Part shown: piece after piece, positions 10,087-15,837 of the stretch
Layout: the number at the start of each line of letters is the position of its first letter
Position numbering within the stretch: position 1 is the first letter of the stretch
Assembly: GCF_006539945.1 (NCBI RefSeq)
Contig: NZ_BJNZ01000007.1
Span: 124,001 to 188,000, forward strand
Direction of reading: 5' to 3'
Source of the DNA: Cellulosimicrobium cellulans
GTDB taxonomy: Bacteria; Actinomycetota; Actinomycetes; Actinomycetales; Cellulomonadaceae
DNA: 64,000 nt
Position numbers and translations under genes: made by a program
The notes under the pieces: generated by a model
Told to the model about the DNA's origin: nothing
Database searches by the model: none
Seen by the model: the letters and a program-made list of their open reading frames with translations, nothing else

Positions 10087-10115
10087 TTGACGCCGGTGGC
10101 CGGGGCCGGTTGAGT
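10087..10115 (+). promoter_or_regulatory. Candidate promoter of the GH6 cellulase gene
   Basis: TTGACG (10087-10092), 17-bp spacer, TTGAGT (10110-10115). Transcription would start near 10122, just upstream of the CelR-like operator. Housekeeping sigma-factor consensus is only partly matched. Confidence 0.45.
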
Positions 10116-10131
10116 GGAGGTCACGGCGGGA

Positions 10132-10145
10132 TGGGAGCGCTTCCA
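10132..10145 (+). promoter_or_regulatory. CelR-type operator (LacI family) before the cellulase
   Basis: TGGGAGCGCTTCCA differs by one base from the 14-bp palindrome TGGGAGCGCTCCCA bound by CelR, the cellobiose-responsive repressor of cellulase genes in Thermobifida and related actinobacteria. It lies just after the predicted transcription start and 40 bp before the start codon. A weaker look-alike, GGGAGCGCTC, sits at 10061-10070. No celR gene is in this window. Confidence 0.8.
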
Positions 10146-10185
10146 TCCGTCGTCCCGCACCCCGTGTCGATCGAAGGAGATCCGC

Positions 10186-11793
10186 ATGAGACGTCGTGCC
10201 GTCCTGTCCGCCGCAGCCGGGCTCGCGCTCGCGACCCCGCTGCTCGTCGTCGGCGGGAGCGCCGGCGCCGCACCCGTCCCCACCTCCGCCGCGCCCCCGG
10301 CGACGGCCGCCCCCGCGGCGGACGACGTCGTCGGGCCGGAGACCCGCCTCTACGTGGATCCCTTCTCCACGACCCTCCAGGCCGCCGCCTCGCTCACGGG
10401 ACAGGCCCGCGCGGACGCCCAGCTCCTCGGGTCGTTCCCGTCGGCCTCGTGGTTCACCGGCGGCACGCCCGACGAGGTGCGCGACGACGTCGCGTCCGTC
10501 GTGCAGGCGGCCGCGACGGACGGCGCGGTGCCCACCGTCGTCGTCTACAACCTGCCGTTCCGCGACTGCGCGCAGTACTCCGCAGGCGGCGCCGCGGACA
10601 CGGCCGCCTACACGGCGTGGGTGGACGCCGTCGCCGCGGGGATCGGCGACGACCCCGCGATCGTGATCCTCGAGCCGGACGGGCTCGGCATCATCCCCTG
10701 GTACACCGACATCAACGGGAACCCCGAGTGGTGCCGCCCCGCCGAGCTCGACCCGGAGACCGCCGCGGCGGACCGGTTCGTCCAGCTCAACCACGCCGTC
10801 GACGCGCTCACGGCGCTCCCGGCCACGTCCGTGTACCTCGACGGGACGCACAGCGGGTGGCTCGGGGTCGGTGACATCACCGACCGCCTGATCAAGGCGG
10901 GCGTCGAGCGTGCGGACGGCGTGTTCGTCAACGCGTCGAACTACGTCGAGACCGAGCGCCTCGTGAAGTACGGCACGTGGATCAGCGACTGCGTCAACCT
11001 GTCGGTCAACAGCTGGTGGGAGCCCGCGTGGTGCGCGAGCCAGTACTACCCGGCGAACCCCGACGACTTCTCCACCTGGGGCCTCACCGACGCCGCGTAC
11101 GAGCAGGCGTACGCCGACACGGGCGTCGTGCGCGACCCGGTGGCGCAGAAGCACGTCGTCATCGACACGAGCCGCAACGGCCAGGGCCCGTGGACCGCTC
11201 CGCCCGGCGCGTTCCCCGACCCGGAGGTGTGGTGCAACCCGCCCGACCGCGGCCTCGGCGAGCGGCCGACGACGGACACCGGCGACCCGTTCGTGGACGC
11301 CTACCTGTGGATCAAGGTGCCGGGGGAGTCCGACGGCAAGTGCTACCGGGGCACCGGCGGCCCGCTCGACCCCGCCCGCGGTATCGAGGACCCCGCCGCG
11401 GGGCAGTGGTTCGTCGAGCAGGCCGCCGAGCTCCTCGCGCTCGCCGTGCCGGCCGTCGAGCGCCCGACCTGCGAGGTCGCGTACACCGTCCACGGGACGT
11501 GGCAGGGCAAGAAGGGCAGCGGCTTCATCGCCCAGGTCGAGCTCCGCAACACCGGCACGGCGCCGCTGGACGGGTGGGAGCTGCGCTGGACCCCCGACGG
11601 GGACCAGCGGCTCACCGACGTGTGGGGCGCGCGAGCCGGCCGCGACGGTGACGCGGTCACCGCGCACAGCCTGTCGTGGAACGCGACCGTACGGCCAGGC
11701 GCGACCGCGACGTTCGGCTTCGTCGCGTCGGGCACGCCGGGTGCCGACCCGCAGCTCGTGACCCTCGGGGGGCGCCCGTGCCACGTCCTCTGA
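10186..11793 (+). CDS. Secreted GH6 cellulase (endoglucanase/cellobiohydrolase) with CBM2
   Basis: Inverting glycoside hydrolase family 6 enzyme acting on cellulose outside the cell. The 535 residues hold a signal peptide (MRRRAVLSAAAGLALATPLL, cleavage near AGAA), a short Ala/Pro linker, the GH6 barrel from about residue 50 with the catalytic-acid motif FRDCAQ (Asp127) and ILEPDGLG (Asp165), then a C-terminal CBM2 (about 429-535) bounded by Cys429 and Cys532 with the conserved Trp residues of a cellulose-binding face. Start ATG follows GAAGGAGA at 10173-10180. Endo versus exo action depends on active-site loops I cannot judge. The CelR-like operator upstream implies induction by cello-oligosaccharides. 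Confidence 0.95.
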   Translation: MRRRAVLSAAAGLALATPLLVVGGSAGAAPVPTSAAPPATAAPAADDVVGPETRLYVDPFSTTLQAAASLTGQARADAQLLGSFPSASWFTGGTPDEVRDDVASVVQAAATDGAVPTVVVYNLPFRDCAQYSAGGAADTAAYTAWVDAVAAGIGDDPAIVILEPDGLGIIPWYTDINGNPEWCRPAELDPETAAADRFVQLNHAVDALTALPATSVYLDGTHSGWLGVGDITDRLIKAGVERADGVFVNASNYVETERLVKYGTWISDCVNLSVNSWWEPAWCASQYYPANPDDFSTWGLTDAAYEQAYADTGVVRDPVAQKHVVIDTSRNGQGPWTAPPGAFPDPEVWCNPPDRGLGERPTTDTGDPFVDAYLWIKVPGESDGKCYRGTGGPLDPARGIEDPAAGQWFVEQAAELLALAVPAVERPTCEVAYTVHGTWQGKKGSGFIAQVELRNTGTAPLDGWELRWTPDGDQRLTDVWGARAGRDGDAVTAHSLSWNATVRPGATATFGFVASGTPGADPQLVTLGGRPCHVL

Positions 11794-12369: not shown

Positions 12370-12589
12370 CTTCACGTCTCCAGGCGGACGCCGGCCGTCG
12401 CAGGGCCGGCGGGTGTGGCGCAGATCTCTCCCATCGCGAGCGAGACGGGCGACCCCAAGGCACTTGGTGCCCGGTATGCCCCGGTTCACCCGCCCGAGTT
12501 CCCGACATGCGACCAGTTTTGCGTCCACATGATGGACGATCCGGCTCGGGGATTGGCGCGCGCGGTGTCGCCGTGCTCATGATGTCGGC

Positions 12590-12691
12590 ATGACCCGGAA
12601 CCACGTCGCCACCACGACCCCGCGCGCAGCGTCCTGCGCCGGCACGTCGTGCTGTCGCGGCGTGCGCACCGGGCGAATGTGCGGCTGCTGA
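12590..12691 (+). CDS. Cysteine-rich leader peptide upstream of metQNI
   Basis: A 33-codon frame with Cys at positions 16, 21, 22, 31 and 33; it ends Met-Cys-Gly-Cys-stop. The ATG lies 6 nt after a CATGAT -10 box (12578-12583), the leaderless arrangement used by many genes here. Two hairpins follow its stop before metQ. Known precedent: cysteine-rich, leaderless upstream peptides in mycobacteria act as cysteine-responsive attenuators of sulfur genes. Inference: ribosome stalling on Cys codons reports low cysteine and opens expression of the downstream importer. It is not annotated by ordinary gene-length cutoffs. Confidence 0.65.
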   Translation: MTRNHVATTTPRAASCAGTSCCRGVRTGRMCGC

Positions 12692-12704
12692 CGCCGTCGT
12701 GACC

Positions 12705-12749
12705 CGCAGGGAGACCTGCGCCGCACCTGCCGCGTCGTCCTGACGACGC
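12705..12749 (+). promoter_or_regulatory. Two hairpins between leader peptide and metQ
   Basis: CGCAGG-GAGA-CCTGCG (12705-12720, a GNRA-type loop), 14 nt after the leader stop, and GCGTCGTC/GACGACGC (12732-12749, 2-nt gap). Neither is followed by T residues, so translational control or Rho access is more likely than intrinsic termination. The 12750-12881 leader holds nothing else I recognise except the GGAAGGAA ribosome site of metQ. Confidence 0.5.
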
Positions 12750-12881
12750 CGCCCCCGCTCGCCGCGTGGCTGATGGCCCGCCGGAAGCACCCCGAACCCC
12801 ACCCCTCGCAGGGCCGTCCCTGCGCCCCGGCCCGCCGGTCGCCACCCGTGACCGACGCCGCCGTCACCGGAAGGAACCCCC

Positions 12882-13784
12882 ATGTCTTTCTCGACCACCC
12901 GCAAGCGTCTGACCTGGACCGCGATCGCCGCGACGGCGGCCCTCACCCTCACCGCCTGCGGCGGCGACGACACCGCGGGCGGTGCCGCGAGCGGTGACGC
13001 GGCGGACCCGATCCGCGTCGGCGTCGTCGGCGCGTCCGACGACAAGTGGGCCGTGTTCCAGGAGCAGGCCGAGGCCGAGGGCATCGAGATCGAGCTCGTC
13101 GACCTCCAGGACTACACGCAGGCGAACCCGGCCCTGTCCCAGGGCGAGCTCGACGTGAACCAGTTCCAGCACCTCCAGTTCCTCGCGGGCTACAACGTGG
13201 ACGCGGGTGACGACCTCCAGCCGATCGGCGCGACCGCCGTCTACCCGCTCGGCCTGTACTCGTCCAAGCACACGTCGCTCGAGGAGATCCCCGACGGCGG
13301 CCAGGTCGCCGTGCCGAACGACCCGACCAACCTCGCCCGCGCGCTCCTCGTGCTCCAGGAGGCCGGCCTGGTCGAGCTCAAGGACGGCGGGAGCTCCATC
13401 TCCACCGAGGCCGACGTGCTGCCCAGCTCCACGGTGACGGTCACGCCGGTCGACGCCGCGCAGACCCCGATCCAGCTCCAGTCCGTCGACGCGTCGATCA
13501 TCAACAACGACTTCGTCGAGGACGCGGGCCTCGAGCCCGAGGACGCGCTCTTCCAGGACGACCCCGACTCCGACGCCGCCAAGCCCTACATCAACGTGTG
13601 GGTCGCGCGGGCCGAGGACTCCGACGACGAGACGCTGCTCAAGCTCGCCGAGATCTCCCACTCGCCGGAGGTCGTCGAGGCCGAGAAGAAGGCGTCGGGC
13701 GGCACCGCCGTCATCAAGGAGAACTCGCCCGCCGAGCTCCAGGAGATCCTCGCCGGCATCGAGGACGACATCCGCAGCTCCTGA
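12882..13784 (+). CDS. metQ: MetQ/NlpA-family substrate-binding lipoprotein
   Basis: Membrane-anchored binding protein of a MetNIQ-type importer for methionine or related sulfur amino acids. The 300-residue product has a lipoprotein signal with lipobox LTAC (Cys26) and family motifs FQHLQFL, PNDPTNLARALLVLQEAGLV and YINVWVARAEDSDD. GGAAGGAA precedes the ATG. It is followed by a strong hairpin and then metN and metI, so the binding protein may be made in excess of the membrane part. The cysteine-rich leader peptide upstream suggests control by cysteine, and the ligand might therefore be cystine or methionine; sequence alone does not decide. Confidence 0.9.
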   Translation: MSFSTTRKRLTWTAIAATAALTLTACGGDDTAGGAASGDAADPIRVGVVGASDDKWAVFQEQAEAEGIEIELVDLQDYTQANPALSQGELDVNQFQHLQFLAGYNVDAGDDLQPIGATAVYPLGLYSSKHTSLEEIPDGGQVAVPNDPTNLARALLVLQEAGLVELKDGGSSISTEADVLPSSTVTVTPVDAAQTPIQLQSVDASIINNDFVEDAGLEPEDALFQDDPDSDAAKPYINVWVARAEDSDDETLLKLAEISHSPEVVEAEKKASGGTAVIKENSPAELQEILAGIEDDIRSS

Positions 13785-13966: not shown

Positions 13967-15178
13967 GTGACCGACGTCCCCCGCGGCGAGGGCGATGACG
14001 AGCAGCCCGCGATCGAGCTGCGCCACGTGAGCAAGACGTTCGGCGAGGGCGACGGTGCCGTGCACGCCGTCGACGACGTCTCGCTGAGCATCCGTCGCGG
14101 CGAGATCTTCGGCGTCATCGGCTACTCCGGCGCCGGCAAGTCGACGCTCGTGCGGCTCGTCAACGCGCTCGAGACCGTGACGAGCGGCGAGGTCGTCGTC
14201 GACGGCCAGGTGATCACCGGGCTGCCCGAGCGCCGCGTGCGCGAGGTGCGCTCGCGCATCGGCATGGTCTTCCAGCAGTTCAACCTGCTGTCGTCGCGGA
14301 CGGTCGCGGGGAACGTCGCCTACCCGCTCAAGGTGGCGGGCTGGCCGCGCGAGAAGCGCGCCGCGCGTGTCGCGGAGCTCCTCGCGTTCGTCGGCCTCGC
14401 GGACAAGGCGAAGGCGTACCCGCGCCAGCTCTCGGGCGGGCAGAAGCAGCGCGTCGGCATCGCCCGCGCGCTCGCCGCGCAGCCCACGATCCTCCTGGCC
14501 GACGAGGCGACGTCCGCGCTCGACCCCGAGACGACGCGCGAGGTGCTCGCGCTCCTGCGGCGCGTCAACGCCGAGCTCGGCATCACGATCGTCGTCATCA
14601 CGCACGAGATGGAGGTCGTGCGCTCGACGTGCCACCGCGTCGCCGTGATGGAGCACGGCAAGGTCGTGGAGACGGGCGACGTGTACGACGTCTTCTCCGC
14701 GCCCGGCGCGGACGCCGCGCAGCGGTTCGTCGGGACGGCGCTGCACGACCGCCCGTCGCGCGACACCCTCGCCCGGCTGCGCGAGCGGCACCCCGGTCGG
14801 CTCGTCACGGTCGGCGTGCGGGAGGGCGCGCACACCGGGTCGGACCTGTTCCGCCTGCTGCGGGAGCACGACGTCGACGGGTCCGTCGTCTACGGCGGCA
14901 TCTCCGAGGTGGGGGAGCGCCCGTTCGGGTCGCTGACCGTCGAGCTCGACGCGCCCGAGGACCGCATCGCGCCGTTCCTCGTCGCGCTCGCCGAGCGCGC
15001 CGACGTCGTGGACCTGGGGACCGCGGCCCAGCCGCTCGACGACCCGCGGGTCGCGCGCCTCGACGCCGACCCGGGCGGCGCGGACGCGCCCGACGACGCC
15101 GGCGGCGACCCGGGCGACCCGTACGGGACCGCGCGCGAGACCCTCTTCCGCCACGGCAACCTCGGAGGCCAGCGATGA
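13967..15178 (+). CDS. metN: Methionine-type ABC importer ATPase (MetN)
   Basis: ATPase of the MetNIQ importer. In 403 residues: Walker A GYSGAGKS, the Q-loop FQQFNLLSSRTV, signature LSGGQKQRVGIARAL, Walker B ILLADEATSALD, H-loop ITHEMEVV, then a linker and a C-terminal NIL domain (about 290-375), which in MetN binds methionine and inhibits transport when the cell is replete. An acidic Gly/Asp-rich tail follows. GTG start preceded by GAGAGGAA; the stop overlaps metI as ATGA. Confidence 0.94.
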   Translation: MTDVPRGEGDDEQPAIELRHVSKTFGEGDGAVHAVDDVSLSIRRGEIFGVIGYSGAGKSTLVRLVNALETVTSGEVVVDGQVITGLPERRVREVRSRIGMVFQQFNLLSSRTVAGNVAYPLKVAGWPREKRAARVAELLAFVGLADKAKAYPRQLSGGQKQRVGIARALAAQPTILLADEATSALDPETTREVLALLRRVNAELGITIVVITHEMEVVRSTCHRVAVMEHGKVVETGDVYDVFSAPGADAAQRFVGTALHDRPSRDTLARLRERHPGRLVTVGVREGAHTGSDLFRLLREHDVDGSVVYGGISEVGERPFGSLTVELDAPEDRIAPFLVALAERADVVDLGTAAQPLDDPRVARLDADPGGADAPDDAGGDPGDPYGTARETLFRHGNLGGQR

Positions 15179-15837
15179 ACGGCGACTGGTCGCGGCTGTG
15201 GCCGATCCTCGTCGAGTCCTTCGGCCAGACCCTCCAGATGGTGTCGGTCGCGCTGCTCACGGGCGGGCTCGCGGGCCTCGCGCTCGGCATCGCGCTCTAC
15301 GTGACACGGCGGGGCAACCTGCTGGAGAACCGCTGGGTGTTCGGCGTGCTCAACGTGCTCGTCAACATCGTCCGGCCCATCCCGTTCATCATCTTCGTGA
15401 CGCTGCTGGGGCCGGTGACGCTCCAGGTGGTCGGGACGACGCTGGGCACCGAGGCGTTCATCTTCCCGCTGTCCGTCATGACGGCGTTCGGCACGAGCCG
15501 CATCGTCGAGCAGAACCTCGTCGGCATCGACCCGGGCGTCATCGAGGCGGCGCGGGCCATGGGCGCGTCGTCGTGGCGCATCATCACGACCGTCCTCGTC
15601 CCCGAGGCGCTCGCGCCGCTCATCCTCGGCTACACGTTCCTCTTCATCGCGGTCCTCGACATGTCGGCGATCGCCGGCATCATCGGCGGCGGCGGTCTCG
15701 GAAACTTCGCGATCGTCTACGGCTACCAGCGCTACAACTGGGGCGTCGTGGTCGTGACGGTGCTCGTCATCATCGGGATCGTGCAGGTCGCGCAGCTCCT
15801 CGGCAACTGGCTCGCGCGCAAGGCGCTGCACCGCTGA
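15175..15837 (+). CDS. metI: Methionine-type ABC importer permease (MetI)
   Basis: Membrane subunit of the MetNIQ importer, 220 residues with five to six helices. The family motifs IVRPIPFIIFVTLLGP and the EAA-loop region EAARAMGASSWRIITTVLVPEA (contact with MetN) are clear. It is translationally coupled to metN by a 4-nt overlap and is the last gene of the operon; dnaX begins 45 bp later from its own promoter. Confidence 0.95.
   Translation: MNGDWSRLWPILVESFGQTLQMVSVALLTGGLAGLALGIALYVTRRGNLLENRWVFGVLNVLVNIVRPIPFIIFVTLLGPVTLQVVGTTLGTEAFIFPLSVMTAFGTSRIVEQNLVGIDPGVIEAARAMGASSWRIITTVLVPEALAPLILGYTFLFIAVLDMSAIAGIIGGGGLGNFAIVYGYQRYNWGVVVVTVLVIIGIVQVAQLLGNWLARKALHR

Follow-up and report, generated by a model that had tools for sequence, protein, structure and literature searches.

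A metL-like, cysteine-rich and probably leaderless leader peptide precedes the metQNI importer operon of Cellulosimicrobium cellulans

Short leader ORFs have been described upstream of sulfur amino acid genes in several bacteria. The closest described system is metL (SLIV_29928) of Streptomyces lividans TK24, which lies before metNIQ and has a leaderless start by RNA-seq (PMC8079986). Its peptide ends CMCRRMCAF, and the authors propose methionine-dependent control; in the available excerpts of that paper they cite the Met and Thr of the peptide, and its three Cys go unmentioned (PMC8079986). In mycobacteria, polycysteine leaderless sORFs are attenuators (Canestrari et al., 2020, as cited in excerpts of PMC13236596 and PMC9094748). 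Candidate leaders with Cys runs were listed for the cys operons of Mycobacterium and P. acnes and for cbs of B. longum (PMC1262725), and the uORFC-8-2 motif is found before cysS in Rhodobacterales (PMC8632094).

The C. cellulans locus shares features with each of these systems, as far as the excerpts describe them. As with metL, a short ORF, here probably leaderless, stands immediately upstream of the operon for this importer and is followed by several hairpins and no Rho-independent terminator, and the C-terminal C-x-C-R-R-M-C of metL is a further point of likeness; metN comes first in S. lividans, whereas the order here is metQNI and Cys is the dominant residue. The preliminary description of this locus knew of no such arrangement before an NlpA/MetQ gene, a claim that metL before metNIQ contradicts (PMC8079986, in part). 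Among the literature matches listed, which include few subscription papers, no other leader before metQ or metNIQ appeared. The mycobacterial sORFs are leaderless, as the present ORF probably is, and likewise Cys-rich and placed before sulfur-metabolism genes, but these are cysteine biosynthesis genes, and here the downstream gene encodes a methionine importer component. The leaders of PMC1262725 also have Cys codons near the stop and no terminator, with Rho suggested by the authors; they differ in the genes controlled, and ahead of methionine operons that paper reports neither conserved RNA structures nor Cys leaders. The uORFC-8-2 motif shares Cys codons in a uORF and a proposed Cys-tRNA attenuation; unlike the present locus it has an intrinsic terminator, and it belongs to another phylum and another gene.

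The window, i.e., the whole 64-kb stretch of DNA that was analysed, carries a tRNA gene and a small SRP RNA upstream of the leader locus, and metQNI is followed by an ORF that resembles DnaX by eye. The features of the locus are given in Table 1. The 33-codon frame with five Cys, its CATGAT box and both hairpins named in the preliminary description are all present in the sequence. The leader ORF translates to MTRNHVATTTPRAASCAGTSCCRGVRTGRMCGC (33 aa, ending C-G-C-stop), and 190 bases lie between its stop codon and the metQ start. A simple promoter scan called no promoter at the leader; ATTGGCG is retained in most genus members whose alignment covers the -35 site (by eye). The motif (G)RM(C/R) is seen repeatedly among family leaders. 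On its position and conservation, the ORF is probably a conserved leader peptide, and a putative transcription start at its ATG would make it leaderless. Elsewhere in the window, positions 10114-11793 encode a secreted protein that resembles, by eye, a glycoside hydrolase of family 6 ending in a cellulose-binding domain.

Table 1. Features of the leader-metQNI locus (positions within the window)
Feature	Position	Strand	Remarks
-35-like TTGGCG	12553..12558	+	19 nt upstream of -10 box; sequence
-10 box CATGAT	12578..12583	+	6 nt between box and leader ATG
Leader peptide ORF, metL-like, probably leaderless	12590..12691	+	33 codons, five Cys, one internal Met
CGGGCGAATGTGCGGCTGCTGA stretch, G-R-M-C-G-C-stop	12670..12692	+	Near-invariant in 16 genus loci
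C-rich, G-poor gap, rut-like	12692..12869	+	49% C, 30% G
Hairpin 1, CGCAGG-GAGA-CCTGCG	12705..12720	+	Kept in genus, compensatory change
Hairpin 2 of the preliminary description, GCGTCGTC-CT-GACGACGC	12732..12749	+	Inverted repeat
GCUGAUGGC hairpin, invariant apical sequence	12757..12788	+	Core stem 12764-12781; covariation
Hairpin 3, CGCAGGG-CCGT-CCCTGCG	12807..12824	+	Stem identical to hairpin 1
metQ Shine-Dalgarno (SD) GGAAGGA	12869..12875	+	Sequence, genus alignment
metQ, NlpA/MetQ substrate-binding lipoprotein	12882..13784	+	PF03180, 7.7e-62
metN, ABC ATPase with NIL domain	13967..15178	+	TIGR02314, 1.8e-97 (below curated cut-off)
metI, permease	15175..15837	+	PF00528, 2.7e-14

Methionine importers sense methionine through the NIL domain of MetN. 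The MetN encoded here has this domain (PF09383, 3.9e-10, over the Pfam cut-off). MetQ, which is 98% identical to MetQ of C. funkei U11, matches both NCBIfam MetQ models at 1e-47 or better, yet below their curated cut-offs. Its closest solved structure is 4yah (3.4e-45), a D-methionine-binding MetQ from E. coli, and the two have VPNDPTNLxR in common. MetQ and MetN thus look like a methionine importer on family and structure matches, and these matches gave no pointer to cystine transport. The suggestion that the true ligand is cysteine or cystine runs against both the motif shared with 4yah and the NIL domain; the putative cysteine link of metQNI is regulatory.

Alignment of the metQ upstream region in relatives had been proposed as a check on the frame, and it showed the frame and its Cys codons to be retained in the genus. 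The genus set comprised 17 genomes, 16 of them with metQ (G001 gave a weak match only). The leader ORF is kept in 16/16 genomes with metQ, and its indels are multiples of three across the genus (by eye). Cys was retained in 78/80 alignment cells and Met in 16/16, compared with 267/318 for residues other than Cys and Met; both Cys losses fall in a single locus (L017, assigned to C. terreum through its named twin, L120). The -10 box reads CATGAT at 14 of the 16 loci and CATCAT at two. Dinucleotide shuffling of the focal upstream region yielded a comparable ORF (ATG-started, 12-60 aa, at least five Cys in the last 24 residues) in 4/2000 shuffles. In one genus genome, which is 83% complete, the metQ gene is split: its two matches overlap, and one in-frame stop is present (G013:C15, L018/L020).

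Enrichment of Cys extends across the GTDB family, where MetQ was detected (E up to 1e-40) in 108 of 150 genomes; a single upstream region was analysed for each of 91 genomes, and 17 genomes with weaker hits were set aside. Frames were required to start with ATG and span 12-60 aa, and Cys was counted in the last 24 residues. At least two tail Cys occur in 84/91 regions, compared with 12/91 on the reverse strand and 28% of shuffles (n=1820), and at least three occur in 58/91, compared with 6/91 and 8%. Cys-Cys pairs occur in 56/91 regions, against 4/91 on the reverse strand and 66/1820 shuffles (3.6%). A NANNNT box lies 5-7 nt upstream of an in-frame ATG in 73 of the 84 family leaders; equal numbers of random sites in the same regions gave a mean of 11.2/84, and 0/2000 draws reached 73. 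The 79 distinct leader tails contain 14.4% Cys and 9.1% Met, and the +1 frame contains 11.1% Cys and 0.1% Met, the former because ATG followed by TG reads TGT in that frame. Since the +1 frame is also Cys-rich, the argument for Cys enrichment rests on the shuffles and the reverse strand. The Met-Cys dipeptide occurs 3.4 times over expectation, and Cys is encoded by TGC 180 times and by TGT 91 times.

Absence of protein-level selection is usual for leader peptides. Leader-frame pN/pS in six clades was 1.31, 3.13, 0.77, 1.03, 0.52, and 1.10, with lower values in the +1 frame than in the leader frame in five of the six, and the test gave no sign of selection on the amino acid sequence in these clades. 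The peptide therefore appears to drift, a pattern that speaks against a working protein, and substitutions leave the frame itself unproven. Retention of Cys while the rest drifts, a trait of the polycysteine sORFs, is seen in the focal genus and not in two other clades: in one, Cys was kept less than other columns (25/33 vs. 208/231), and in the other, equally (14/21 vs. 92/138). Met was kept better than Cys in two clades (20/22 vs. 25/33 and 19/21 vs. 14/21) and less well in two (11/12 vs. 16/16 and 15/20 vs. 10/10). By their composition and conservation, the leaders look like sulfur amino acid sensors in which Cys is dominant in the focal genus. Met is conserved alongside Cys, so either amino acid may be the one sensed.

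Sibling leaders with Cys codons were found in the same genus. In the genome under study, 15 sulfur-related or PALP loci were scanned, and only cysK and sulfite reductase have a Cys leader before the gene; the other scanned loci have none or have frames that were not placed as leaders. The sulfite reductase leader MTTAARTLLVTSRHGMPACAHTCLSCCR (G000:C4, L258/L302) has TATCGT seven bases before its ATG and looks leaderless. It lies approximately 750 nt ahead of a PF01077 match, on which the sulfite reductase call is based, and this family alone does not exclude nitrite reductase. The cysK leader MTATIARPAPLHRAVSRVSCCRCLGCR (G000:C24, L271/L285) is preceded by a Shine-Dalgarno sequence. The cysK leader is conserved in 17/17 genus genomes with three to five Cys, and the sulfite reductase leader in 16/17, with one weak match (L318) left out. 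Of all the evidence, these siblings argue most strongly that cysteine is the signal, and metQNI, cysK and sulfite reductase look like members of one cysteine-starvation leader regulon. Of the cysteine attenuation proposed in the preliminary description, the cysteine component gains from the leaders before cysK and sulfite reductase; sensing of cysteine alone does not, as Met codons are conserved too. A cbs-cgl pair guessed on contig C8 was rejected: one gene is cystathionine gamma-synthase, and the other reads by eye as threonine ammonia-lyase. No cystathionine beta-synthase was identified among the proteins typed (L272 and L273 left out), so a methionine-to-cysteine route is hypothetical.

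Leaders of this type also occur in other lineages. A class-level scan covered 60 metQ upstream regions, in which frames had to start with ATG, contain two or more Cys, and reach a total of four or more for Cys plus Met (judged by eye). Met/Cys-rich leaders were seen in 5/6 regions of f36, 9/11 of f35, 3/9 of f33, and 1/1 of f52, compared with 0/10 of f19 and 0/11 of f41, and the remaining 12 regions had no clear leader (L226 is doubtful). One f35 leader, MTTTSSRTLATEATMTPGARCMCRMRAF, lies ahead of a metN-like frame. Because the f35 leaders are near-identical to published S. lividans metL, f35 was taken as Streptomyces. These leaders and metL have the same position and the same R-M-C core as the focal leader, the C-terminal core being GRMCGC in the focal leader, RRMCAF in S. 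lividans, and RMC or RMR at the f35 loci. A scan of named relatives covered 59/80 loci, with clear leaders in Oerskovia, Isoptericola, Promicromonospora, Sanguibacter, Cellulomonas, two Actinotalea, Jonesia, Timonella, Jiangella, and Phytoactinopolyspora. No clear leader was seen at the named loci of Serinibacter, two Georgenia, Ruania, two Microbacterium, two other Actinotalea, and two MAGs.

At L074 (G397, which shares the genus handle g99 with Promicromonospora-like loci), the GCUGAUGGC hairpin is retained and the usual leader ORF is apparently deleted, which is either natural leader loss or an assembly artefact. A record labelled Sphaerisporangium cinnabarinum ATCC 31213 (L117, QAPD01000045.1) has a Cellulosimicrobium-type metQ locus with MetQ 92% identical and a leader that matches the C. 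funkei JCM 14302 leader at all but one residue; it is probably a mislabelled genome. A search for the exact pattern GGNCGNATGTGYGGNTGYTGA in 297 genomes of the order returned its own site and one match in an unrelated region (L033), which was taken as chance.

The gap between the leader and metQ contains several hairpins (Table 1). Conservation of both hairpins of the preliminary description was upheld for the first, which shows compensatory change in the genus; the second is not kept in more distant genus members (by eye). In the five most distant members, the hairpin 1 arms read GCAGGG/CCCTGC, GCAGGC/GCCTGC, and GCGGGC/GCCTGC, in a count with fixed 6-nt arms that mis-set the focal hairpin 1. 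Hairpin 3 is retained in part of the genus (by eye). The GCUGAUGGC hairpin, missed in the preliminary description, is better conserved than hairpin 2. All 16 genus loci have it, and so do 27 loci of other genera, with an identical apical sequence; at these 27, one stem pair is A-T at 15, G-C at eight, C-G at three, and unpaired at one. Among 11 distinct arm pairs, 60/66 stem pairs form, compared with 55.1 when arms are shuffled; 16/5000 shuffles reached 60 (3/2000 in a more lenient version of the test). In 2/11 sequences of the genus, a G-C to A-U double change is seen at one pair. Many leader-bearing genera lack this hairpin, so that it is an add-on, and it has no Rfam match. A second uORF from its AUG was rejected, as the focal frame overruns the metQ start and some relatives have an early stop (by eye).

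C-rich, G-poor untranslated RNA is a hallmark of Rho loading, and the rho gene is present in the genome. The focal gap has a C minus G value of 0.19, which 0.33% of 6384 windows across the 64-kb sequence attain. Family gaps average 0.187, with 78/83 above 0.1, compared with 22/175 other intergenic upstream regions in named relatives (rough gene caller). Values were 0.15-0.19 at nine f35 loci, 0.04-0.28 at five f36 loci, and 0.16-0.26 after the sibling leaders; the cysK and sulfite reductase gaps gave 0.23 and 0.20. C-richness of the gap might be a general trait of transcribed leaders. One of 13 regions of the window (27805, minus strand) is as C-rich as the focal gap and precedes a permease-like frame with no Cys leader. 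A simple consensus scan of 12370-12900 found no intrinsic terminator with a U-run, and covariance models matched no riboswitch (SAM or other Rfam element) or T-box at the locus. Predicted mean SD accessibility at 77 loci was flat across ribosome positions (0.310, 0.307, 0.308, and 0.310). Attenuation by the two hairpins of the preliminary description therefore found no backing: there is no terminator, hairpin 2 is unconserved, and no ribosome-dependent change at the SD is predicted. With neither an intrinsic terminator nor a visible SD switch, a Rho-dependent off state is most likely; on gap composition, Rho-dependent attenuation is favoured, unproven as it is.

We consider it probable that a leaderless, metL-type leader peptide controls metQNI via translation-coupled attenuation with a most likely Rho-dependent off state, and the leader probably switches the importer on when sulfur amino acids run short. 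When Cys-tRNA, and probably also Met-tRNA, is plentiful, a translating ribosome would complete the leader and depart, and most transcripts would not be carried into metQ, most likely because Rho terminates them within the C-rich, G-poor gap of approximately 180 nt. When Cys- or Met-tRNA is scarce, ribosomes would halt at the Met and Cys codons clustered near the leader end, a stalled ribosome would keep Rho off, and expression would rise. In this genus, metQNI appears to be co-controlled with cysK and sulfite reductase. An alternative that is rather doubtful, although it has a precedent in the cysteine genes of M. smegmatis (PMC13236596, in part), is translation attenuation, in which RNA pairing would mask the metQ SD and a stalled ribosome would free it. 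The gap does contain several hairpins, two of them with identical stems; against this stand the flat predicted SD accessibility at the 77 loci and the rejection of the leader tail as an anti-structure to the GCUGAUGGC hairpin. Pairing with the leader's own partner was better in only 16/39 cases for the 5' arm and slightly more often, in 29/39, for the 3' arm, in a weak test whose positive control, the hairpin's own arms, won only 21/39.

Which amino acid is sensed bears on a second alternative, in which the leader senses methionine, as the Streptomyces authors proposed for metL, and the Cys codons are incidental. Its position before a methionine importer, the 9.1% Met of leader tails, the Met of R-M-C kept in nine f35 and 16/16 genus leaders, and the Met-rich leaders of Jiangella all agree with it. 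We nevertheless judge it unlikely, given a focal genus leader with five Cys and one internal Met and the Cys-coded sibling leaders of cysK and sulfite reductase; moreover, the position between the first two Cys holds M, L or T among the nine f35 leaders, whereas the second Cys is kept in 9/9. Similarly improbable is a reading in which the conserved unit is a binding element in RNA or DNA (the CGAATGTGCGGCTGCTGA stretch plus the GCUGAUGGC hairpin) for a protein or small molecule, with the ORF as a by-product. Nucleotide conservation without protein-level selection, the lower +1-frame pN/pS in five of six clades, and the covariation of the GCUGAUGGC hairpin are what such an element would predict, but both Cys codons are in use, the leaders MMCCRMLQRDAATA and MMCCRAGLMPGGCCR of other genera have codons in common and not sequence, and the hairpin is missing in many leader-bearing genera and belongs to no Rfam family. 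It is highly improbable that the ORF product is a small, Cys-rich protein with a function of its own; its Cys residues are conserved in the genus, but there is no protein-level purifying selection, length and sequence vary between genera, and no family match was found.

The preferred reading, sulfur amino acid attenuation through the leader, can be carried further in a tentative form that we regard as quite possible and still somewhat doubtful: Cellulosimicrobium and its relatives would run a methionine importer as a cysteine-supply operon, cysteine shortage opening methionine import; Streptomyces metL would be mislabelled, the real sensor being the R-M-C codons for Met and Cys; and Rho and the new GCUGAUGGC hairpin would take part in the switch. 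The finding ties the Streptomyces methionine leader metL to the actinobacterial cysteine leader peptides. In the dozens of genomes compared, metNIQ leaders hold conserved Cys plus Met codons, and in one genus three sulfur operons have Cys-codon leaders. Which amino acid gates methionine import is thereby made a question that is directly testable by codon swap.
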